Positions 3,246 to 25,149 of a stretch of DNA of 28,645 nt are shown in pieces. Positions within the stretch are counted from its first letter, which is position 1, and each line of letters starts with the position of its first letter. The DNA is from Rhizophlyctis rosea (Eukaryota > Chytridiomycota > Chytridiomycetes > Rhizophlyctidales > Rhizophlyctidaceae), in the NCBI GenBank assembly GCA_027596075.1, contig JADGJC010000426.1, positions 1 to 28,645 of the forward strand, written 5' to 3'. Under the pieces are notes generated by a model, which searched no databases, was not told the DNA's origin, and saw nothing but the letters and a program-made list of their open reading frames with translations. A program made the position numbers and the translations under genes.

Positions 3246-5181
3246 CTATTTTACATGAGGTTTCTCCACATCTAACTTCTCAACGGTAACTTCAGAAACC
3301 AAGCCACCCTCAACTCCAAAGTCCCTCCTCGTCTTCTGCCACCCAGCACTCTGCCTGGCACTAACTCCACTCTCAAACATCTCGTCAACATCCTCCAACA
3401 TCAAACCCTTGGTTTCAGGCACGAAGAAATACACATAGGCAGCTCCCAAGAAGGTGCAACAAGCCCAGAGGAATGCGATCTTGGTTCCGAGATTTGCGTA
3501 GTCAGAGTCGGTGAGGTAGGGAGTGATGAAACCGAGGATGAAGTTCCAGAGCCAGTTGGAGGCGGTTGACATGGAGATGCCTTTGGCGCGGACGGGGAGG
3601 GGGAAGATTTCGGAGGGGACGACCCAGGCGCCGGGACCCCATGCGGCGGCGAACTATGGGTTGGTTGAGATGAGTTTTGTTCAATATCCAGCGAAATGCA
3701 AATGACACCGAGTTCTACGTACCCCAGCAATGAAGATGCAGGAGAATACAGTGATGATAATACCCGCGGTAGGGCTGGAAGCGATCACCACACCGGCGGC
3801 ATCCTTGGTGGCGGGGAGGGCTTCGCCAGTGATTCCGACTACCATCTGGTGATTGATTGGGGTATTGGTGAGTGCAAGTAGGAACCAGGAAGAATCGAAC
3901 CCAATCCTTACCATTCCCGAAAACATAACCCCACATCCAATAATCATCAAAAGCCGTCGACCCCATCTGTCAATCATCCACATGCCCGGGACTGTGAACA
4001 AAACCATGACAACGCCAGTAATGGTCTGGGTCATGAAACCTTCCAAACCAGCAGACTTGAAGAACGTGGTGCCGTAGTACATGATGAAGTTTATACCGGT
4101 GAGTTGTTGGAACATTTGGAGGAGGACGCCGATGAGAGTACGGCGGAGGAGGGGTTGTTTCCAGAGGGTCGCATAGCCAGTGTCGGTGAGGATTTCGGAT
4201 TCGTGAATGAGACCCGCCTGGTGGACAAAGTGCGGAAATTGTCAGCCAAAAAAGACCAAGTAAGTTGTGCATGATATGTATAGTGCAACAAACCTTAATT
4301 TCAGCAATCTCCTCTTGCACTCTCTCCTCTCCATGAACGTCACCGTTTTTGACTCCGTATAGGGTTCTGAGCGCAGCAACAGCGTCATCGTGGCGTCCTT
4401 CTCTCATCAGTCCGCGGGGTGAGTCGGGACAGAAGTAACATCCTCCACCGAGGACGAGAGCCCAAAGAAGCTGCAGACCGATTGGGATGCGGTAAGATGC
4501 GGAGTTGGCGATTCCTTGGGTGATTTGGTTGACGACGAAGGCTAGCAAGAGACCGATGGTGATTGTGAGTTGGTAAGTTGCGACGAGGGAGCCACTGAGA
4601 TGGAGAGAGATGGGTGTCAGCCTTGTGGGGAGTGAGAAAGGGGTGATCGCCGCTCACAAACTCACCGAATTTCTTTCGGAGCAACTTCAGAGTGGTAGAG
4701 AGGAACAAGGTCCGACAACAACCCGACACCCATGCCCGCGATGACGCGTCCAAATGTGAGAACTGGAACCGTTGCCGCTCCGGTCTGGATCGCCACCCCG
4801 ACTCTGGGAGAAAATCAAATTTCAGCATACCCCATTTCAAAACCAATCGACCGAATCTCAGAAAACTCACGCAAAAACCATCGTACTATAAATCATAGCA
4901 AACTTCCTCCCAAACCGATCACCAGCCCATCCACTCGCAATAGCACCCAAAAAGGTTCCCACACTCAACAAACTAACAACCAAACTTTTGTTGGTTGTGT
5001 TGAGGGCGTATTTTTCACCGACGGGCTCGCCGAATTGTCGTTGGAACTCGCCCATTTCTAAAATGCCAGATATGAGGCCGGTATCGTAGCCGAAGAGGAA
5101 CCCGCCGAAGGCTACGAAGGTGGAGATGAGAATGACATTGAGGTTTTTGTGAGGGGGTTTTTGGGGGGCGTCGGTGGACAT
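3246..5181 (-). CDS. Hexose/sugar transporter of the major facilitator superfamily, six exons
   Basis: This is a plasma-membrane sugar:H+ symporter or facilitator of the sugar porter family (12 membrane helices). Exons on the minus strand, from the start, are 4871-5181, 4666-4803, 4294-4594, 4217-3912, 3845-3723 and 3653-3246; every intron is GT..AG. They sum to 1587 nt, exactly 529 codons including the stop, giving 528 aa, typical for the family. Signatures occur in order: GYDTG (31-35), GWAGDRFGRK (DRFGRK at 88-93), a diverged PDSPRGL (family PESPRWL), QQLTGINFIMYYG (from 287), DRWGRR, PSEIFPLPVRAKG and PETKG (472-476). The cytosolic tail is about 50 aa. The PESPRWL motif has Asp for Glu and Gly for Trp, an unusual change that may affect gating or specificity. 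The sugar carried cannot be read from sequence. It is the only recognised gene here with a complete, uninterrupted reading frame. Confidence 0.95.
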
Positions 5182-7021
5182 TTTGGAGGGAGGTGCTAAG
5201 GACGATGAGGGGATGAGGTGCGTTGAGGAAATTTCAGCGCTTTTGGGTCTCTGCACGCCTGGGGAAAGCGTGTCAGGGTTTGAAAGTGCTTTTCATTATA
5301 TATAACGATGATCCACGACTTCCGCACAATCATTTAGGCTCCGGATCGCAACATGATTTACTGAATGAAGGTAAGTCAGCCGGTGTGTTCATGTGCCTGC
5401 TGGTGGCGAGGTTGGCAGCCAGTCTCGCATCCTCCACCGCCAGACCAACACGGTCTGCACTCCGAAGCGTGAGATCCGGTTGAAGCCTTCAAGTTCGCCG
5501 TTGCGCATGACAGGTTCAGTATTTCCCTCCGTACGAGGCGCGCAAAGAAATGCGACGCCGTGGAAATGTAACGCCGCCCTGCACGAATCTTGTCCGGCTT
5601 TTCACCGGCGCGCAGACGCGTACGGAAAACACCGAATTTATGCAAGTCTGAGCCTCCATCAGGCAGGTGTTCCAAATGCGGAAGCCACTTCCTCCGTCTA
5701 TCAGTTTTTCAATCAAACAGTGGCGCGCCACCCCCTTCATAGGTAATCCCTTCAAATGGGGCGACCAAAGAACAAGGTGCATTGAACATTCGTTTCGGTC
5801 CCTTGACTCCCTTCCAAGTTTCCTTGATGGAAGAACAAGGGACCGCTGGCGGGCGGTCTGTCGGTCGAACGGTCAGGTTATTGCGGAGCTCTCCGGAGGC
5901 TGTCCACTCCATAAGGACAATCAGTTCCCCGAAGGCTTTACTTGCTCCTTTCGTTATAAGGTTATTGTTGGTGAGAGAGGAATCTTCGAGTTACGCCCTA
6001 TCATTTCTGATGGGGATCAGGCTGAACTCCAAAAAGACAGAAATGAGTCGCTCATTGGGAGATGTTGTTCAAATTGACAATTTCGATGAATCCAAATCGA
6101 GCTCGATTTGTATTTTTCTACTACAGTAATGCAAAGTTGTGGCACCTTCACTCGAATACCACAAGCGTCTCCATAAGACTTATCAATTTCACCACTGGTC
6201 CACTGCTCTACTCATCAGCAAAAGATAAATCCGCACCCCTTCCAGTGACTCCCAGTCTCCATTCGCGTCCAAATATTATCAACCAAGCGCTTGTATTGTG
6301 ACAGATAAGATGCACCTCTGCAAGTGTCAAGTTGTGGTTCCCCACCTTAGGAGATGGTTGTTTGAGCATTTTTAATCGAACCAGGGAACTCTTGTTATGT
6401 TGTCTTTTGCTTCGTGGAGTTATTAGGGGAGGGCTTATTGCTTGGGGCGGTCCTTACCCACATCTACCCACCTCCCACATCACCCAAACAATGCGTTCAA
6501 AATGTTTTTCCAGTCAAACCCATATCATAAACCCGATCCCTGAAAATTTCGATACCACATTGTTTTGCTTTATTCAGAATAATACACGTGCAAAATATAT
6601 CGCGCAATCCCCGCTCGGTAGTGTAGATGAGGACGTTAGGGAAGAACTCGTCATGCAAACCTCCCCTGGTGGCAGAGCGAACACTCGGCGTAGCATGACT
6701 GTGCCGCTAAGCAAATCGGTCGCGTTCGAACAGGCAGGTTGTTATTTTTAGCCTTCCCAATCTCCCAGTCTCGTCTTCGTCTCATCTTGGTTTCATCTTG
6801 CTTGGTCACATCGAACGTCCAGAGCTATTGAGTACGCCGCACAGGGCTCACCTCCAAATAGCATAGATAGACCTCGTCGCTGTGACTAGGACAAGATGGT
6901 GCAAGACGTGACGCGAAGGAAACGGGGAGAGGAGTCGGTTTTTTCAATAGTTGCGGAAGGTGGGTAATTTTCTCACCTGGGTCAAACCCGATGTCAAAGC
7001 AACAACGCGGACAACTGACTT
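5182..7021. other. Gene-poor interval with an 18-bp palindrome
   Basis: This 1.8-kb stretch contains the transporter promoter at its left edge. No open frame in it has recognisable motifs, although one plus-strand frame at 5667-6077 stays open for 136 codons. A perfect 18-bp palindrome (CAAATCGAGCTCGATTTG) lies at 6093-6110. Confidence 0.45.
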
Positions 7022-10697: not shown

Positions 10698-10759
10698 GCT
10701 TGTCGACGGGATCGAACCGTCGCGCCTTGTCAAAAGACAGTGGCGATACCAATCCAAGC
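10698..10759 (-). ncRNA. tRNA-like fold A (62 nt, no D-stem)
   Basis: On the minus strand it begins GCUUG and ends CAAGC (5-bp acceptor-like helix). Inside are AUUGGUAUC (a D-loop remnant), a hairpin CGCC..GGCG extended by UGUC-UUUU-GACA, one C, and a textbook T-arm GACGG-UUCGAUC-CCGUC. GGTTCGATCCC matches a polymerase III B box. The 5' half of the D-arm is missing, so it is too short for a normal tRNA, and the anticodon-like loop has only four bases. The length and layout resemble mascRNA-type tRNA-like RNAs that RNase P and RNase Z process. No CCA is encoded. Confidence 0.7.
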
Positions 10760-10939
10760 GATAAAAAAGGGCGGGAGTAGCCGACACACGGGCTTTCACC
10801 GGTATCCTCCCTATGAGAAGTCGTCCACCCCTGGGCTTGAGCTTAGACTTCTATGTTGGGTATCCTATCATCGGAGACTCTCCTCAAGGTGAGTATGACA
10901 CGACCATCGACTCCAAGACAGAAGGTTTTGCAGGTAACC

Positions 10940-11300
10940 ACCACCCGAAAGTAGATGATCCGTGCGCTGGCAGCACGCTGCCGTTGCAGTCGACTACCAC
11001 CCGAAAGTAGAAATAGCCAGTGCAACGCTCGCCCCTGACCCGTTCATTACAGTCAACCACCGCCCGAAAGCAGTTAGCCAGTGCAACTAATAGGATTCAG
11101 TGCAATATGATGCGTTCACCCATTCCCGCAATTTCTCAGTTAGCCGCCCGCCGAAACAGAATGACCAGTGAGAAATGCCCAAGTCGACAGACCCCCGAAA
11201 GAGTGTAGCCAGTTGGTAAGGAATGAGTGATGCCCCGCCTGGACCGGAGTCCAGTGGTTGTCCCCAGTTAATCACCACCCGAAAGTAAATGATCAGTGGG
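10940..11300 (-). repeat. Array A of six UUCG-capped hairpins
   Basis: Six copies of CCGAAA(G/C) (plus strand) start at about 10944, 11000, 11063, 11150, 11194 and 11278. On the minus strand each forms a hairpin closed by U.G around UUCG. Outer helices enclose several units: 10982-10988 with 11021-11027 (7 bp), 11046-11051 with 11082-11087 (6 bp counting G.U), 11131-11138 with 11169-11176 (8 bp), 11179-11182 with 11213-11216, and 11263-11266 with 11297-11300. Just inside the outer helix the minus strand repeats CUGGC or a close variant. Spacing is irregular (44-87 nt). Confidence 0.8.
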
Positions 11301-11305
11301 CTGTC

Positions 11306-11748
11306 TTGAAGAAGATGGAAGGTGAAGGAGAAAGCGAGAGTGGGAAGTGGGGAGGTCTGCTTTTATGTGTTTTGGAGGGTCGACCTCGAAATTGGGCTTG
11401 ATAGTGCGATTGCCTTTTTTGAACACGCGTTCTTGACTTCGCTTTCGGAGGGGGGTCCATTTGTGATTGCACCCTGGCAGGTCATGTGATTCAAGGACTC
11501 AGCAAATCAGTCCCGAAACGGGTTTGATTGGAGTCCAAAACGTGGCGCAATGAGCGCGCAGGCTGAGCATCTGTGCTACAAATTTTTGGGAGGGGAAGCA
11601 ATGCACTGACTAGACACCTCTGTCGTCACATGCAATGACGGATGGGCGCGCAAAGGTGATAGATCCGGACAAATTCACATAAAAGGCCGCGTATGATGGG
11701 AAACCCCCCCTCTTCTGTTGTTTCCCACACTCTTCTTCTTGACTGGTT
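11306..11748. other. Spacer between element A and the LRR1 gene
   Basis: This 440-nt stretch is not coding. It would hold the promoter of LRR1 on the plus strand (a weak TATA-like CATAAAAGG at about 11679) and, if element A is transcribed from its own start, the promoter of A on the minus strand. No other signal was recognised. Confidence 0.4.
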
Positions 11749-12199
11749 ATGCTCAACATGTCCAACAGTCAAAATATCCCTCCCGTCAACCATGGTCAGC
11801 GCGGCGTACAAACCCGGGGTATGATCCAGAGAGAAGTGTTAGGTGATATTACCCACCTCCCCGGGTTTGAGGCAACGCAGCACGTATTCAACACAGCTCA
11901 GAACACCGCTCCAGTGACACAGCATACCCACCACCCCACCCATACCCACCATCCACCCCACCACCATCCACACCACCACCATCCACACCACCACCAACAA
12001 CAACAACAAGCACCACAACCCCTCCCCCACCTACACCACCAAAACCCGCTCCCAAATCTCCCTAATCCAGGACCTCAGCCAAACCTCCTACCCACACTTC
12101 ACCACCACCACCCACATCCTCCAAACCCTCCTAATATCCCTCTCCCACTCCCACATACCCTCAACCCCACCCGCAACGCTTCTACCACCACCCCCAACC

Positions 12200-13168
12200 C
12201 CTCACCAAACATCCAACACCGTAACAGAGACGGAGTCTGGATCGGAGGACGACGAAGCACCAGCTATGCGGGAGGTAGAACGGGTTCTCCGCGCGCGGCT
12301 TGTCATATCGTCAACTGAAGATTACTTGGTTCTCAACGTATACGGCGACGATGACGTAACAAGTTGGACGGCGCCTGAGGGTTTTGCTGGCAAGTGTCTG
12401 TTTGGCGCTATTGGTCTTCTGGACCGCGAGAGGTGAGTAACGTGTATCGTGGTCATTATGTTGAACAAAAACACAAAAGAGTTTTACTCATTATCAATCT
12501 TAACTTCCAGGCCATTAGCAGCTGCTACAACAGATGCTTTCATGTGCGTTGATTTGACGATGATGAAGTTACAAGACGTTTCCGTTCCCGAAGCCTTCCT
12601 TTCATACCATCTCGCCCACACGCTACAACGGCTGACGCTCATTGACGTCAATGTTAGCAGTGTAGATTGGAATGTAGTTGGGTTGAGGTGCGGTGTGTTG
12701 CAGTACTTGGTTATTGACATGAATACGTTTGATGAGTATAAGGTGAGTTTGATAATCTGTACAGTTTATGGCGCGGGATTGGAAACATTTCGCCATCATC
12801 AACCTTCTCACACTGTCTTTCTAAATGCCATACAGACCGACGGCCTTCTTAAATGCATCCGCAAATCCCAAGAACAATCCCCCGCCCTACGCGAACTAAC
12901 ACTCTTCAATGCCACCTCCACCGCGCATCGAACCCTCATCACGATCCGGAAACTCCGGTCATTGCGCCGCGTTCTTTTGACATATTCTCCCAGTCTGCGC
13001 GTAACGGAGTAGCGCCAATTCATCTCCACCTTGCAAACACCATATCGGTTCGTTGCCCTGGCCGTGCGTCATTGCCCAATGGGTGCAGGACTCCGTGGTG
13101 TTTTGGGTGTTGATTTTGTGGATGTGGAGATGGATCGGATGACGGAGGAGGAGGTTGGGGAGATTTAG
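12200..13168 (+). pseudogene. LRR-like gene 1, one premature stop
   Basis: Resembles the C-terminal leucine-rich repeat part of fungal F-box/LRR proteins; exact family not recognised. Exons: one ending at 12432 (acidic TETESGSEDDEAP, then YLVLNVYGDDDVTSWTAPEG), 12511-12742 (LAHTLQRLTLIDVNVSSVDW), and 12836 onward (SPALRELTLFNATSTAHRTL). Introns 12433-12510 and 12743-12835 are GT..AG, and the frame runs through. The third exon meets TAG at 13010-13012, but the same frame then stays open for 51 codons to TAG at 13166-13168 (FVDVEMDRMTEEEVGEI). That tail aligns with the end of LRR2, so 13010 is probably a premature stop. Upstream of 12200 the sequence is C/A-rich low complexity, and the true start is unclear. 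Alternatively the protein is functional but 52 residues shorter. Confidence 0.6.
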
Positions 13169-13765
13169 TAAGGGGATTGGTTTCGCGGGTGTTATTAGGA
13201 GGTGAGGAATCAAAGTATTTTCGGCAGGGGAAGTTGGGGTATAAATGGCATGTACTGTCTTTTCTGATGGAGGAGAGTAGCTTGTGACTGTGGTTTCGGA
13301 GGATAGGGGACGATTGCAGTTCCTCTGTTTGGTAAAGTTCTGTATGTGGTTGGGTGTTTGTATGTATATATGTTTGTGATTCGAAAAACGGAATTCTGAG
13401 TTGTCGACAATCATGTGGTGCTTTCGACTTTGATTCTGGCTGATAATATCATTTGAACAATTGGGGAGGGATATATCAACCCATTGTATGATGTACCAAC
13501 CGCACGGAGACACGTCATCGTCCAAGATGCCAGTTCCCTCCAGTTAACCGTCTCTTGTGCCTCTATTCCTTTCACGCTCGCCTCCTTGTATTGTCCCTCC
13601 AATACACCGCTCATCAAAGGTGCATTAACTGCAATGTAAGAAGTCGTCGTGTCTTGCGATTAAGGCAATCCCGAATTTCGAAACTGCAATAGGCCCCTAA
13701 GGCCCCAAGGGGCGGAGCCCACATTCGGTGCATTACATGACAGGCTATCCAAATAACCCGAAATA
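13169..13765. other. Intergenic stretch after LRR1
   Basis: No coding or RNA signature was found. It contains the 3' flank of LRR1 and a small C/G-rich inverted segment (GGCCCCAAGGGGC) near 13701. Confidence 0.4.
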
Positions 13766-13966
13766 CCTTCCCAAGCCTCAAAGCAGGGTATATTTACAGC
13801 CAGGTCTCCCTATTGCCCCTGTAAAAGATTCAGGGTCTCCACTATACTTTCGGGTTGATGTCGACTGCGCTAGGTCAGTACGCTGCACTCCGGTGTCCGG
13901 CGCCCTGCCATCTCTTGTCGTATTTCGGCAGGGTGGTACACTGGATTTTTTTTGGGTTTTTTTTTT
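13766..13966 (+). repeat. Dispersed TATA-containing repeat, copy 1
   Basis: This aligns end to end with the copy at 22824-23017. Shared landmarks in order are CTTCCCAAGCC, GCAGGGTATA, GTAAAAGATTCAGGGTCTCC, CTGCACTCCGGTGT, GGCAGGGTGGTAC and GGATTTTTTTT. The spacing is nearly constant and the copies are clearly diverged between landmarks. The TATA element plus T-rich end would fit an LTR fragment, a non-autonomous element or a shared promoter. No terminal TG..CA or target duplication was seen. Confidence 0.7.
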
Positions 13967-14424
13967 GCAGATTGATGGTGACTCCATGCGGTTTTCTATG
14001 GTCCCCATCGTCAGTCCCTACGTCATCCATCCAGGGGAAAGTAAGCCCTTATCATGTTAATGATTGACAAATATACGTCGGCCTATATGCATCGTTTGCT
14101 TGACACGCAGAAACCCCGGTGAGGGGGAGGCTGGAGCGGATGAGAGCACGATCGGAGCTGTACCAAATCAACAGTGCCGCACATAGGATGGGTTTGGCGG
14201 GCTAAATCTACTTATAACTGCAACTAGTGTATTGCAGATTGGCCCGGTTCAACCCGTTTTCGGCCCGGCATCCTCCACATGTGGAGGTTTCTGACACCAA
14301 GAAGTGTGTGGCTTGGAAGCTGGTGACACGTCAAGTAGACAACATGAATGAGGGATGATTCACTGGCCTGAACATTCACTTTCACCCCATTCCAGATTCC
14401 CACCCCACTTTCTCACCATCGCGC
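13967..14424. other. No recognised gene
   Basis: This follows the T-rich end of repeat copy 1. I found no family motif, no repeat of other window sequence and no RNA fold worth reporting. Confidence 0.4.
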
Positions 14425-18316: not shown

Positions 18317-18403
18317 GTACGTCTCTTTGTTCTTCGGTTCACATGAACTGTTGGTTATGTTGAACGGTGTCTGTAGTATATAACATTCCTGAATACTGAT
18401 CAC

Positions 18404-19462
18404 CCCTTACTCGCCCGTCCACAACCGCAGTCAGTCTCATCACACTTTCCCGTCGTCGGCTCCGAGCACTCACAGAGCCAACGCCGATCCCCCAAGAAGC
18501 CATTGAGCGCATACATCTTCGTCGGTCCCGATTATCGGTCGTCGGAACCGGGTTTGGCCGAGGGAGAGGTGACAAAAGCTGCTGGGATCATCGGACAAAG
18601 GTGGAAGGAATTGACTGATGGCGAGAAGAAGGTACCTACACAATTACGTTTTGTCGACAGTGCAGATGCTGATGCGATTGGTCAACATCAAGTTGATACA
18701 GGCCTTTTGGATGCGGCGAAAGCAAGGCGCAAGAGGGGAGCTGCTGCCAGCAAAGCGAATGCAGACGTAAGTTCTTTGTGATGATTATGTTCTACAATAT
18801 GTTTCAGAAGGCTAATGATGTCTCTAGTCTCATGATGACAAACGGACGAAGTTCGATCCTCCCAAAAAAGAGCAACTTCTCGGTGGGCCGAGCGCAACTA
18901 AAGGGCTCGTCGCCTGGACGGATATCGTGCGGAAGCGGTTCCCAAATTTCATTAGCAGCAAGCACACTCAGCTATCTCAATTCGCCAAAAACATCATCAA
19001 AGAACGTGGGCTTCCCGATATGCGAGTAATGTCCGCGTCCGCGACCCACATTGCCACATTGACGATACCGACACAACTGGCGGATGAGTTCATGGAGGCC
19101 GTGGAGCAGAACTATGGGTCGACTCTTGCGTCCAACCGGGGTAGTATGCCGGCGGCGCCCCCATCTCCATCAGTCGATGCCGGTGGGTCGTCTGGGGAGT
19201 AGGGATCACAAACTCTCCCACACCGAATCTCACCAGCCTTACGGTATGGACCGACCGCGTTCGTCTCGTTCGTCAAATATCTGGCACCTTCTATTGTAAC
19301 CGCAACGGAGTCGCATAATCCCATCGTGACAACGCCAGCCGAGTGGGACTGAAGGCGGAGGAGTGCATGGCTTCCGCCATGAAACGGGAACGGAAAACCT
19401 ATGCCATTTCTGATACATTGAAGGATGACTTCAAGGAATGGTTCGAACTCCATCGTCAGAAG
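18404..19462 (+). pseudogene. Gene fragment with two HMG-box-like segments
   Basis: HMG boxes bend DNA in chromatin proteins. Segment 1 (from about 18488) reads SPKKPLSAYIFVGPDYRSSE, then GEVTKAAGIIGQRWKELTDG and EKK, a good match to NHP6/HMGB helices. The exon continues to a GTAAGT donor at 18769. After TCTCTAG the next exon (18828-19202) gives WTDIVRKRFPNFISSKHTQL, FAKNIIKERGLPDMRVMSAS, an unassigned domain, ending at TAG (19200-19202). The same frame then reopens into segment 2: TAFVSFVKYLAPSIVTATES and TTPAEWD, with a shift at TGA 19350-19352, after which LKAEECMASAMKRERKTYAI finishes the box and runs to TAA near 19460. The N-terminus is missing: no ATG before the acceptor-like CCGCAG at 18430. 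The 18.4-19.2 kb part alone could still be a functional shorter gene. Confidence 0.6.
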
Positions 19463-19916: not shown

Positions 19917-19968
19917 GCTTGCCAACGGGATCGAACCGCTGCACCTTGAAGGTGATGCCAATACAAGC
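19917..19968 (-). ncRNA. tRNA-like fold B (52 nt, no D-stem)
   Basis: On the minus strand it pairs GCUUG with CAAGC (AGCUUG with CAAGCU if extended). It then has UAUUGGCAU, a hairpin CACC-UUCAA-GGUG, one C, and a T-arm AGCGG-UUCGAUC-CCGUU. Compared with copy A, the hairpin pair G-C becomes A-U (CGCC/GGCG to CACC/GGUG) and the outer T-stem pair G-C becomes A-U: two compensatory changes. The B-box match GGTTCGATCCC is identical. If the hairpin is read with a seven-base loop the anticodon-like triplet is UCA, but the 52-nt length makes a decoding tRNA very unlikely. Confidence 0.72.
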
Positions 19969-20144
19969 TTAAAAAAAAAGGAGAGGAGCAGTCGGTGCAC
20001 GGGCTTACACCTATGCTCCCCTGACCCCATATAGCAATATAAGGTCTTTCCCACAGAACCCGGACCCCCACAACCCACGGGCTTGAGTTGCTTGATCTTG
20101 CACATATATCCCTCAGATGCCAACCCATCCACAGCAGACAGCAA

Positions 20145-20490
20145 TTTTGCCATTGATCATGAACCGAAGCGCATGACTGGGGCACCGCCAACAGAGGGTT
20201 ACCAGTCGCCATTAGCTACGAACCGAAGCGCATAGTTGGGGAGACCTTCACAGTGTCGACAGCATAGTTTTGCCAGTGATCACGAACCGAAGCGCATGAC
20301 TGGGGCACTGGTAGCAGAGGGTATCAAGTCGCCATTAGCTATGAACCGAAGCGCATAGTTGGGGTAGACCGTCAACCAATACCACTGGTCGCCATTGTGC
20401 TATGAACCGAAGCGCATAGTTGGGGCAACCTGCTTGCATAAATCGAATCACCATTGTGCAATGAATCGAAGCGCAAAGTTGGGGTAATAG
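20145..20490 (-). repeat. Array B of six UUCG-capped hairpins, about 60-nt period
   Basis: GAAYCGAAGCGC (plus strand) begins at 20161, 20220, 20284, 20343, 20404 and 20463, giving spacings of 59, 64, 59, 61 and 59. On the minus strand each gives a stem such as CUAUG/CAUAG around CGC-UUCG-GUU. Variants CATGA/TCATG keep pairing by compensation, and CUAUG/CGUAG keeps it by U.G. Outer helices: 20273-20278 with 20306-20311 (6 bp, perfect), 20387-20393 with 20424-20430 (GGUUGCC/GGCGACC), and 20447-20452 with 20483-20488 (AUUACC/GGUGAU). Minus-strand CCCCAA or CCCCAG lies between outer and inner helix in every unit. Confidence 0.85.
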
Positions 20491-20509: not shown

Positions 20510-21205
20510 CCAGGTTTTCGCAATTTAGTCACTCCATTATGCTCAGCCGTAACTCTGGCGTTTCTTGCACTAAAAGTTACTCGTCTTTACCTTGGTTCCT
20601 GCACGGTTCCGGCGAAGTTCATCAGTTCTCAGCTCAAGTCCTGCCTGCGAGCGATTGCTTTATTTGATGTGCACTTGGCCTCGGTGGAATGGGGTGCGTT
20701 GGGTTGCAATGCCGTGCACCTGGAAGATCCAACAATTCGGGATGATACGTTGACTGAAGGCAATGTAGGATGATGCGTTCTCGCAAACTGTTTATGTAGG
20801 GTTTTTTTGTCTTTCATTTGGGTCATCCATTTGAAACTAACTACACATCCCGCTTCTCTCCACATCCAGCTTCACGCCTTCCTCTCCTCCCTCGTCAAAG
20901 CCCAAAACGAAGCACCACGTCTACGAAATGTGAGCTTGTTCAATCCCGTTTCTTCACACCACCGCATCCTCGCCAACCCCATCCAAAACCTTCCCCGCCT
21001 GCAATGCCTCCTCATAACCTGGGCACAAAATGGCGCTAGACAGAACGACGTGAAAAACATCATCTCCAGAGCCGCCACTGCCGGCCGCAACATCGAAATC
21101 ATCATCCGATGTTGCGCCGAGGGATCAAAGGCTAGGAAGGCGCTGCAGGCAGTGGTAAAGTTTGATAAGGTGGAGGCGCCGACGTTGAGTGCGGACGATT
21201 TGTAA
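20510..21205 (+). CDS. LRR-like gene 2, 5'-truncated at element B
   Basis: Paralogue of LRR1, aligned exon for exon. The first recognisable exon (20510-20764) reads ALKVTRLYLGSCTVPAKFIS, LKSCLRAIALFDVHLASVEW, and ends at AAT|GTAGGA. After CACATCCAG the second exon (20870-21205) reads LHAFLSSLVKAQNEAPRLRN, VSLFNPVSSHHRILANPIQN, and ends LEAPTLSADDL-like at TAA. The phase is 0 at the shared intron in both genes. No stop or frameshift occurs in these 591 coding nt. Upstream of 20510 the frame closes at TGA 20507-20509, where hairpin array B begins. Any N-terminal domain (an F-box would be usual) is absent. It may be a truncated relic, or be expressed from a start I cannot see. Confidence 0.55.
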
Positions 21206-22823: not shown

Positions 22824-23017
22824 AACTTCCCAAGCCCCATCGCAGGGTATAAAAACCGCCCTGTTCTGTTCTTTCCCCCGTAAAAGATTCAGGGTCTCCA
22901 CTTAACCCTCAGGTTGGTGCACAACTGCTCCCAGTACACTGCACTCCGGTGTTCGGTGCACTAGCACTTCGTGTCACTTTCTGGCAGGGTGGTACTCTGG
23001 ATTTTTTTTGCGTTTTT
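22824..23017 (+). repeat. Dispersed TATA-containing repeat, copy 2
   Basis: Second copy of the repeat at 13766-13966. Here the TATA element is a strong GGGTATAAAAACC at about 22844. The block GTAAAAGATTCAGGGTCTCC is identical in both copies, as are CTGCACTCCGGTGT and GGCAGGGTGGTAC. Flanking sequences do not match, which fits independent insertion or retained promoter modules of two genes. Confidence 0.7.
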
Positions 23018-25149
23018 GAGGTTCTTCATGAGTTGAGAAGGACTTGTCTGTGTGCTGATAAATCCTTACGGCCGGTAAGAAGTCCCCCATTCGCAAGTGC
23101 ATGTCCTTATCCCGTCTGATGTGACATGAGAGGAAGTGTCTCGTCTGGAATTTGGTTGTGATGCGGTCGTGTGCAATCCTCATCCCGAATGTAGCATGAG
23201 CATAACCACCCCTGAATTATCACACATTAACACGTGTGCAGGGGAATCAATACGCAGCACTGCTGGCGAAGCATTGAGCAAGGAGCAAATGACGACATCA
23301 TGGTGGGACTTTGGCATCGGTATGCCAAACCGTCCAAAATGCCTTAGAGAACATAGCGCGTCGTCGGGCGTCGTTGCAGGTAGACCAGGATGAATTGCGA
23401 CTGGGCGTGAAGGGGCTTGGGACAAGGGGATCCCATAACCAAACTTGCAAGCATGGGTTGCTTGCAGATGATGAAGCGAGATGCACCCCTTCGATATCCG
23501 CTCGCGTCGCGGCAGTCATTTATCTTCGGATTGCTGGAGATAAGTGGCACCCCGCTTCCTCATTTTATAAACCAAAAAGAGCCAGAACTCGATTATCTTA
23601 CTGTTCAACATTGGCCACCGCCCATCTTCCCACACCAATACTGATTGCCCCATCATTCATCAATTCCATAGACATACAGTTCTTCTCTACTATGATTTTG
23701 TCAACATTATGCTTGATCACTTCACGACCGCGATTGTTGCTTTATCTGGGCTGTTGTCTCACGAACCAGTTTTCAAAAAACACAAGATTCCCGCAAAATG
23801 ACATAGCAATTCTTCACCGGCGGGAGCCTTGTTGCTGCCAATGTTTCAACTGTGCCTTTCTTGGTGGCTGTACGGGGTGAAGATGATCATGCATGAAAAT
23901 ACAAAGAGCCAGGACAGGATTTAACCGTCGACTGGTTTCTGTCTGCCAAGTACACCACCTCACCGATTGGTATTAGGGCGTACTAGGCTAAGCTGCGGTC
24001 GCAAAAGTTGGAATTATGAACAATATATGGCATCGCTTGCAGACCATGCTGTTGCAAGCAAAACAGCTTTGCAGATTTCCGGTCAGACCTTTTTACTTTA
24101 CCATGAGGCGGCCCATGCCGTCAGATGCGTCCACGGCCACCTCCACTTTCATTTTCTGCAATGGAGGTTGGGGCTGTTCGGGAGTGTAACCGTCAGCCTT
24201 CAGTAGGCACAAATGGATTGAACGTCCAAGCTTTCATCAGTGGAGTGCTCATGCTCTGCATTCTCTTTATTGTAACGGCAGGTGCGGTAAATTGCCCATC
24301 ATTCATGACTTTCATGTGATGTACTGATTGGTGGCCCGAGTTAGCGCATGGTGCAACTCTGGTTAGCCAGCTGTTATCTGCGAAGCAGGATTTCATTGGT
24401 CGAGTGAGCTGGGATGACTCATTTCCAAGCCACATTGCAGGTATGTAAGGGTCCTGATTCCCATAGTTCCCATCAGCTCCTCGATCGAAGTCCAGTGTGA
24501 TTATTCGTTCTTCGGGATGGTCTCCACTGTATCCGACGTATAGAGAGCAATTGTCCATTGCCACTCTACTTACTGGATGCCCTAGCACCATGTCGTATTT
24601 CGGCATGATGGTCGGCTGGGCTTCATGTCTTTTCGTTGTTCACATTTTGGAGTGCCGATGTTCGACATGGGCGTTGAATTTTTTGGCTGTCTTTCAGCGG
24701 CCCCAGACGCACCATGTTGAGAGATGCCGAAGCCGACATCTACGAAACCGGCCGGCAAACTTGCCCATCATGAACACACTGGCCAGCAACATGCACCCAG
24801 ACTGTGTGGATTGCGTCTGTAACTTCTGTATTTGCTCATGAATCGAACTGATGGTATTGGTGACGCGCCGTCCACTCCGGTCTTCCAGTATTGCCCTGCC
24901 AAATGTCACCTCCGATACCCAGGGAGGGAGGTTACTGGCTCCAATCTAATGTCCATCATGTGACGGTGCTTATATGTTGTGGTTACTGCCGCAATGTCAA
25001 TCATACCATATGATTCCCATTAACAAACAAAGTGACTGCAAATCGGTGCAAAGCAGCAAAGTCCGATAACCATTTCCTCAGGTTGCATTATCATTTTCGA
25101 TGTACACGAGAATGAGAGGGAACAAGGCCACCTGGAACACTTCACAAGC
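23018..25149. other. Long interval without recognised protein genes
   Basis: Open frames here reach 189 codons (23311-23880, plus) and 137 codons (24606-24193, minus), but neither shows family motifs, and overlapping frames are of similar length. The minus-strand one reads MDNCSLYVGYSGDHPEERII and may be real; I cannot place it. A tRNA-like remnant lies at about 23905-23963. Confidence 0.35.
23905..23963 (-). other. tRNA-like remnant
   Basis: On the minus strand TGGTGTACTTGG fits an A box. It is followed about 20 nt later by GACGG-TTAAATC-CTGTC, a paired T-arm lacking the usual GGTTCGA. The acceptor ends do not pair and the total is only about 59 nt. This could be a decayed tRNA or a tRNA-derived element head, unrelated in detail to the folds in elements A and B. 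Confidence 0.3.

Follow-up and report, generated by a model that had tools for sequence, protein, structure and literature searches.

Type III toxin-antitoxin systems are bacterial and combine an endoribonuclease with pseudoknot repeats within one operon, and the RNA sponges of the CsrB/RsmZ type, equally bacterial, display GGA loops and are not known to have a linked target gene family. Within the literature searched, in which few subscription journals were covered, no eukaryotic hairpin-array RNA family with a co-inherited protein family was found. With respect to gene layout, the yeast SNR6 gene possesses a TATA box upstream and a box B downstream of its terminator, as described in the available excerpt of PMC9136082. 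The accessible text of PMC12941219 names MALAT1 and NEAT1 as the only lncRNAs known to employ tRNA-processing enzymes.

Array B, a tandem hairpin array in the window (the whole stretch of 28,645 nt of Rhizophlyctis rosea DNA that was analysed), is one member of a family of eight loci, A to H, in the genome of this soil chytrid. Every locus carries a paralogue of a linked orphan protein gene, here called X, together with one array of hairpins capped by UNCG loops (UUCG, UGCG or UACG). Locus B comprises the following features:

20145 to 20490, minus strand: array B, six tandem UUCG hairpin units, the first unit damaged
20079 to 20085, minus strand: CAAGCCC of locus B within CAAGCCCGTGGGTTG, conserved in C
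19985 to 20021, minus strand: terminal hairpin of B, loop UAAGCCCGUG
19971 to 19979, minus strand: T9 run of B, predicted Pol III terminator
19917 to 19968, minus strand: tRNA-like structure of B, with the B box GGTTCGATCCC at 19927 to 19937
20510 to 21202, plus strand: X_B, linked protein gene of which only the C-terminal part is present; the array occupies the place of the front

The first-pass annotation had described a six-fold recurrence with a period near 60 nt, and this is borne out by a pattern search of the window, in which GAAYCGAAGCGC has six exact copies at 20161 to 20474 with start-to-start spacings of 59, 64, 59, 61 and 59 nt (period 59-64); with up to two mismatches it has 12 matches in the window, a number attained in 0 of 100 shuffles. 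The CUUCGG tetraloop hairpin claimed for each copy stands in five of the six units, which show the C(UUCG)G closure on the minus strand, and fails in the 5'-most unit (20459 to 20478), which reads CUUCGA and has lost the closing pair and two stem pairs. Folding confirms two of the claimed outer helices, GGUUGCC/GGCGACC and CCAGUG/CACUGG. A 97-nt block is present twice in the array, 123 nt apart and at 90% identity, and because of this the units do not amount to six independent pieces of evidence. The covariation that had been taken as the sign of selection is weak within array B, as its 91.4% of paired cells is reached in 15 of 500 shuffles and its two of seven pairs changed on both sides in 238 of 500. 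Folding of the array is in no excess over shuffles (z +1.23, or z -0.49 when pairs may span at most 70 nt).

Upstream of array B, the motif count returned none of CAAGCCC, AAAGCGRAGTC and TATAWA. The match to X_B starts adjoining the array; in X_A, more than 600 nt of coding sequence precede the corresponding point. The 3' module of B still pairs. The missing promoter motifs and the missing front of X suggest that array B is probably a decayed relic, and the locus is most simply explained by a deletion that removed the shared promoter region. A neutral minisatellite with hairpins formed by chance would fit the folding no better than shuffles, the recent 97-nt duplication and the lack of promoter motifs, but it does not account for a 3' module that is 70-75% identical to the modules of A and C with changes that keep the pairing, nor for seven other loci where arrays of other sequence present UNCG loops at the corresponding place; we consider this explanation very unlikely.

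Array A, the second array of the window, is real, with seven UNCG hairpins by the detector described below and a folding z of -2.76 without span limit. Its locus reads:

10931 to 11303, minus strand: array A, tandem hairpins with six UUCG loops and one UCCG loop
10773 to 10811, minus strand: terminal hairpin of A, loop AAAGCCCGUG
10763 to 10768, minus strand: T6 run of A, predicted Pol III terminator
10698 to 10759, minus strand: tRNA-like structure of A, with the B box GGTTCGATCCC at 10708 to 10718
11435 to 11445, minus strand: AAAGCGAAGTC, promoter element of A; C, D, E and G have it too when one mismatch is allowed
11394 to 11400, minus strand: promoter element CAAGCCC of A, also in C, E, F, G and one U6 gene
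11360 to 11367, minus strand: TATA-like CATAAAAG of A
11758 to 13144, plus strand: X_A, the linked protein gene HDV00_008250 (P0002), divergent from array A

Elsewhere in the window lie a sugar transporter gene with introns (Sugar_tr; 3246 to 5292, minus strand), a gene with a sub-threshold HMG-box match (18377 to 19202, plus strand) and two plus-strand ORF pieces, at 13701 to 14057 and 22853 to 23116, which are 60% identical over 50 residues and represent a duplicated piece.

The units of arrays A and B have little common sequence apart from the UUCG tip, and the covariance model of twelve A and B units that had been recommended would have mixed two such arrays. The 3' flanks of the two loci agree at 156 of 223 aligned positions, which include the hairpin, the T-run and the tRNA-like element, and the terminal hairpin loop is (A/U)AAGCCCGUG in A, B and C. 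Locus C, on contig C41, was found in a genome search with the element of B, to which it is 75% identical, and its array is longer than B, with nine hairpins. Since A, B and C are near paralogues, they are not independent. Protein searches provided an independent route to the arrays D to H, five of the eight, which were located through matches to X: the X_A exon has further copies on C125, C134 and C625 (two), and X_G revealed a third copy on C625. These loci are:

L058: locus D, UGCG loops
L057: locus E, UUCG loops
L056: locus F, UACG loops
L082: locus G, UUCG loops
L083: locus H, UGCG loops

A detector requiring at least four UNCG hairpins within 350 nt on one strand counts seven in A, five in B, eight in C, six each in D and E and four each in F, G and H; four hairpins are attained by 3 of 200 shuffled strands. 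Among 16 unrelated places the detector was positive in one, the tandem repeat on C618 (L044/L045), where L044 1480-1900 (C618:~122.8-123.3 kb) contains two blocks of tandem CUUGC(UUCG)GCGAG hairpins, which may be a further hairpin RNA or a satellite; neither X nor a tRNA-like element was seen in the part of L044 that was read. Weaker X-like matches on C190 (E 8.7e-4, with four stops), C323, C268 and C68 have no array within the ~3.2 kb examined at each. Several pattern matches for the tRNA-like element were not counted as members, namely C225 (sequence read), C68 (matched letters only) and the three-mismatch matches C11 and C603; the stretches of these last two, L010 and L011, were scanned with the model and the detector, and L011 gave two weak model matches at E 0.62 and 5.8. 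A search for CTTCGG triplets returned B and C and other places including C618 and C440, both of which were read, and C535, the remaining matches being judged by the matched letters. At C440, L041 1140-1420 shows alternating GCCTTCGGC and GCGCTTCGCGC palindromes, which are GC-cluster-like.

The strongest case for a functional RNA is made by the paralogous loci, C above all, the tRNA-like element, the U6-like promoter and the linked protein gene, on all of which the first-pass annotation was silent; its proposal of a selected, structured minus-strand RNA of a fungus was right as to class and organism, with the best evidence located outside array B. Five units of array C are built alike, with eight pairs, a 3-by-1 loop and CC(UUCG)GG. 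All 50 of 50 cells (100%) are paired, seven of the eight outer-helix pairs are changed on both sides and none of 500 shuffles attains any of the five measures, in a count for which five of nine units were chosen and the four with another plan dropped beforehand. Array C also folds far better than shuffles (z -5.28). When only local pairing is considered, z is below -2 on the sense strands of only three of the eight loci (C -5.47, E -3.31, H -2.07). Read by eye, units in A, C, D, E and G frequently follow a single architecture despite little common sequence: an outer helix, then a small internal loop with a single unpaired nucleotide 5' and one or two 3', then a middle helix and a tip capped by UNCG. 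The arrays very probably function at the RNA level.

Behind the T-run, A to D possess a tRNA-like structure. A model of the element from A, B and C has a match in D (E 0.0037) immediately after a T10 run, and the acceptor, central stem and T arm of D differ in letters yet pair. Over the terminal hairpin and the tRNA-like element of A to D, 96.9% of cells are paired and 11 of 24 pairs are changed on both sides (0 of 500 shuffles), seven of them among the 15 pairs of the tRNA-like part; this count excludes E to H and uses an alignment of D fitted to the model, and as the covariation from A to C alone is not significant (148 of 500 shuffles), the strong result comes with D. Folded freely and alone, the D element prefers another structure. 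No tRNA-like fold was recognised in E to H, where attempts by eye on E, G and H were not accepted, and a MAFFT alignment of the four elements, wrong on the 5' side, was left out. ARAGORN reported no tRNA gene with a complete cloverleaf in the window, L009 and L056-L058, and Rfam at the gathering threshold had no match for these sequences or for L082 and L083; at E up to 5, the Rfam matches for B, C and D were all far under the cut-off and none was MALAT1/NEAT1-like. The exact tRNA-like pattern is absent from viral and prokaryote contigs, collections that are not meant for fungi.

Further elements were observed beside the arrays. Hairpins with AGCCCG loops, like the AAGCCCGUG loop of A to C, adjoin arrays E (L057 4230-4350) and H (L083 5850-5785), and CAAGCCC occurs in both settings, promoter and hairpin. 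Behind the array, E, G and H all carry TTTTTGGAAA(A)C and, after it, a hairpin resembling a T arm:

L082 ~930-885: TTTTTGGAAA(A)C element of G
L083 ~5765-5730: the same element of H
L057 ~4352-4425: the same element of E

With respect to transcription, motifs were counted from anchors set by hand. A T-run of at least six (T6-T10) follows the last hairpin by 22-199 nt at all eight loci (background 6.9% per 250 nt), and an internal T5 occurs in four, C, D, G and H. Upstream of the array, CAAGCCC is present in five of eight loci (A, C, E, F, G; background 2.1% per 150 nt) and missing in D and H as in B, AAAGCGRAGTC with at most one mismatch in five (A, C, D, E, G; background 0.65% per 200 nt) and exact TATAWA again in five (D, E, F, G, H; background 4.1% per 150 nt), with CATAAAAG in A and no TATA upstream of the array in B and C. 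The B box behind the T-run is exact in A, B, C and E, has one mismatch in D and is matched only at two mismatches in G and H, with none in F; the background per 120 nt is 0.75% for exact matches, 2% for one mismatch and 13.75% for two. In the three U6 snRNA genes (L084-L086), TATATA is preceded at exactly 12 nt by CAAGCCC (one gene) or TCAGCCC (two genes); the distance from CAAGCCC to TATA is the same 12 nt in F, 13 nt in E and longer in A and G, and CTGCAGGGTATATA is common to F and one U6 gene. Around the U6 genes themselves, GGTTCGTATCC was noticed ~180 nt behind the U6 T-run in L086, and in L084 the 3' end of U6 recurs once more downstream.

The SNR6 layout and the CAAGCCC/TATA block that E and F have in common with the U6 genes of this genome argue that the hairpin arrays are likely to be transcribed by RNA polymerase III. 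A MALAT1-like lncRNA made by Pol II would instead pass through the T-run and the tRNA-like structure, with RNase P freeing the mature 3' end. MALAT1 and NEAT1 use 3' processing of this kind, according to the accessible text of PMC12941219, and the stems of the tRNA-like structure are kept in A to D through two-sided changes, which a B box acting only as DNA would not need. Against this, T-runs are found at all eight loci, the promoter block is common to U6, the tRNA-like fold is recognised in none of E to H and, on reading the sequence, no A-rich tract for a triple helix lies between hairpin and tRNA-like element, and we regard a Pol II transcript as improbable.

X_G is 100% identical to HDV00_012463 of Rhizophlyctis rosea, and X_A and X_G consist of a low-complexity front and a C-terminal part, which in X_A and X_E has a weak LRR-like match under the Pfam cut-off. 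A Pfam scan of X_G, the X_A exon and the X_E piece gave only weak sub-cut-off matches, LRR-like or low-complexity, and neither an RNA-binding domain nor a nuclease or ToxN match. The front end of X is alike in D, G and H; an interpretation of its motif as a D-box was dropped, as the spacing differs between copies, and the predicted structure (pLDDT 36) is unusable. Homologue searches with X_G and X_A matched only each gene itself and missed the same-genome paralogues too, so that they argue only weakly for an absence of X outside the species.

Paralogues of X range down to 22-41% identity, and X is divergent from the array in A, B, C, E and F and convergent with it in D, G and H. A comparison between loci of ORFs of at least 50 residues at the protein level returned X, the hairpin genes and, between G and H, one further match of 53 residues that lies upstream of X. 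Beyond X and the hairpin gene, the loci have almost nothing in common. The arrays group as A-B-C and as D-E, E-H and G-H, and the groupings of RNA and X concur in that A, B and C belong together by both, as do D, E, G and H, with F having an array that stands alone and an X nearest to A and C. The adjacency kept despite changed orientation argues for a functional bond, which is not proof of binding, and that the hairpin RNA physically binds the X of its own locus is a tentative proposal. The arrays might adjoin X merely through co-copying, the RNA acting alone, for example by sponging up a protein or by scaffolding a nuclear body. Co-duplication alone could account for the neighbourhood, and X is without a reported RNA-binding domain; the persistence of the adjacency at eight of eight loci, through differences in orientation and X identities down to 22-41%, speaks against such an unlinked RNA, which we think unlikely.

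For the family as a whole, we propose a model to which we attach about even confidence: a Pol III hairpin-string RNA from a U6-type promoter would provide a multivalent platform for the X of its own locus, with B probably a relic. RNA polymerase III would start at the U6-type promoter and stop at the T-run, and the resulting string of UNCG hairpins would offer the X protein of the same locus multiple binding sites. Behind the terminator, the tRNA-like element would offer TFIIIC a B box; in transcripts that read through, its fold could be a substrate of RNase P. By either route, the 3' end of the RNA would lie within the U-run or immediately after it. A more speculative extension, which we rate as rather doubtful, is a recognition code in which each X reads the hairpins of its own locus by a UUCG, UGCG or UACG loop and locus-specific stems, so that X/RNA pairs duplicate and co-diverge into eight distinct partnerships, possibly protein-plus-RNA-antidote modules. 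A eukaryotic counterpart of type III toxin-antitoxin, in which a harmful X is neutralised by the repeat RNA, would agree with a repeat RNA adjoining a fast-changing protein gene and with one hairpin type per protein copy; X has no nuclease or ToxN match in Pfam, however, and array and X are divergent or convergent rather than in one operon, which makes this reading a long shot.

If true, the platform model would add a new class of Pol III-type structured RNA, extend the tRNA-like 3' element beyond the animal lncRNAs MALAT1 and NEAT1 and provide, within a single genome, eight natural RNA-protein pairs with which to study how recognition specificity evolves; it would be an RNA-protein partnership of a previously undescribed kind. 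Like ToxIN and CptIN, as outlined in the available excerpts on type III toxin-antitoxin, the family places a tandem-repeat RNA gene beside one protein gene, and it is unlike them in its chytrid host and its UNCG hairpins. Many hairpins with one kept loop, as expected of a titrating RNA, recall the CsrB/RsmZ-type sponges. The predicted position of a tRNA-like structure with a short D arm on the 3' side of a noncoding transcript is shared with mascRNA and menRNA of MALAT1 and NEAT1, which are vertebrate Pol II transcripts with a triple helix upstream, whereas the family has a T-run at that position. The layout of A to H, with TATA and B box recognised at part of the loci, is like that of yeast SNR6 in the available excerpt, with an upstream TATA, a T-run terminator and a B box behind it, and differs from it in a predicted RNA of ~280-630 nt of tandem hairpins and in a B box that in A to D lies inside a tRNA-like fold, 33-44 nt behind the T-run.
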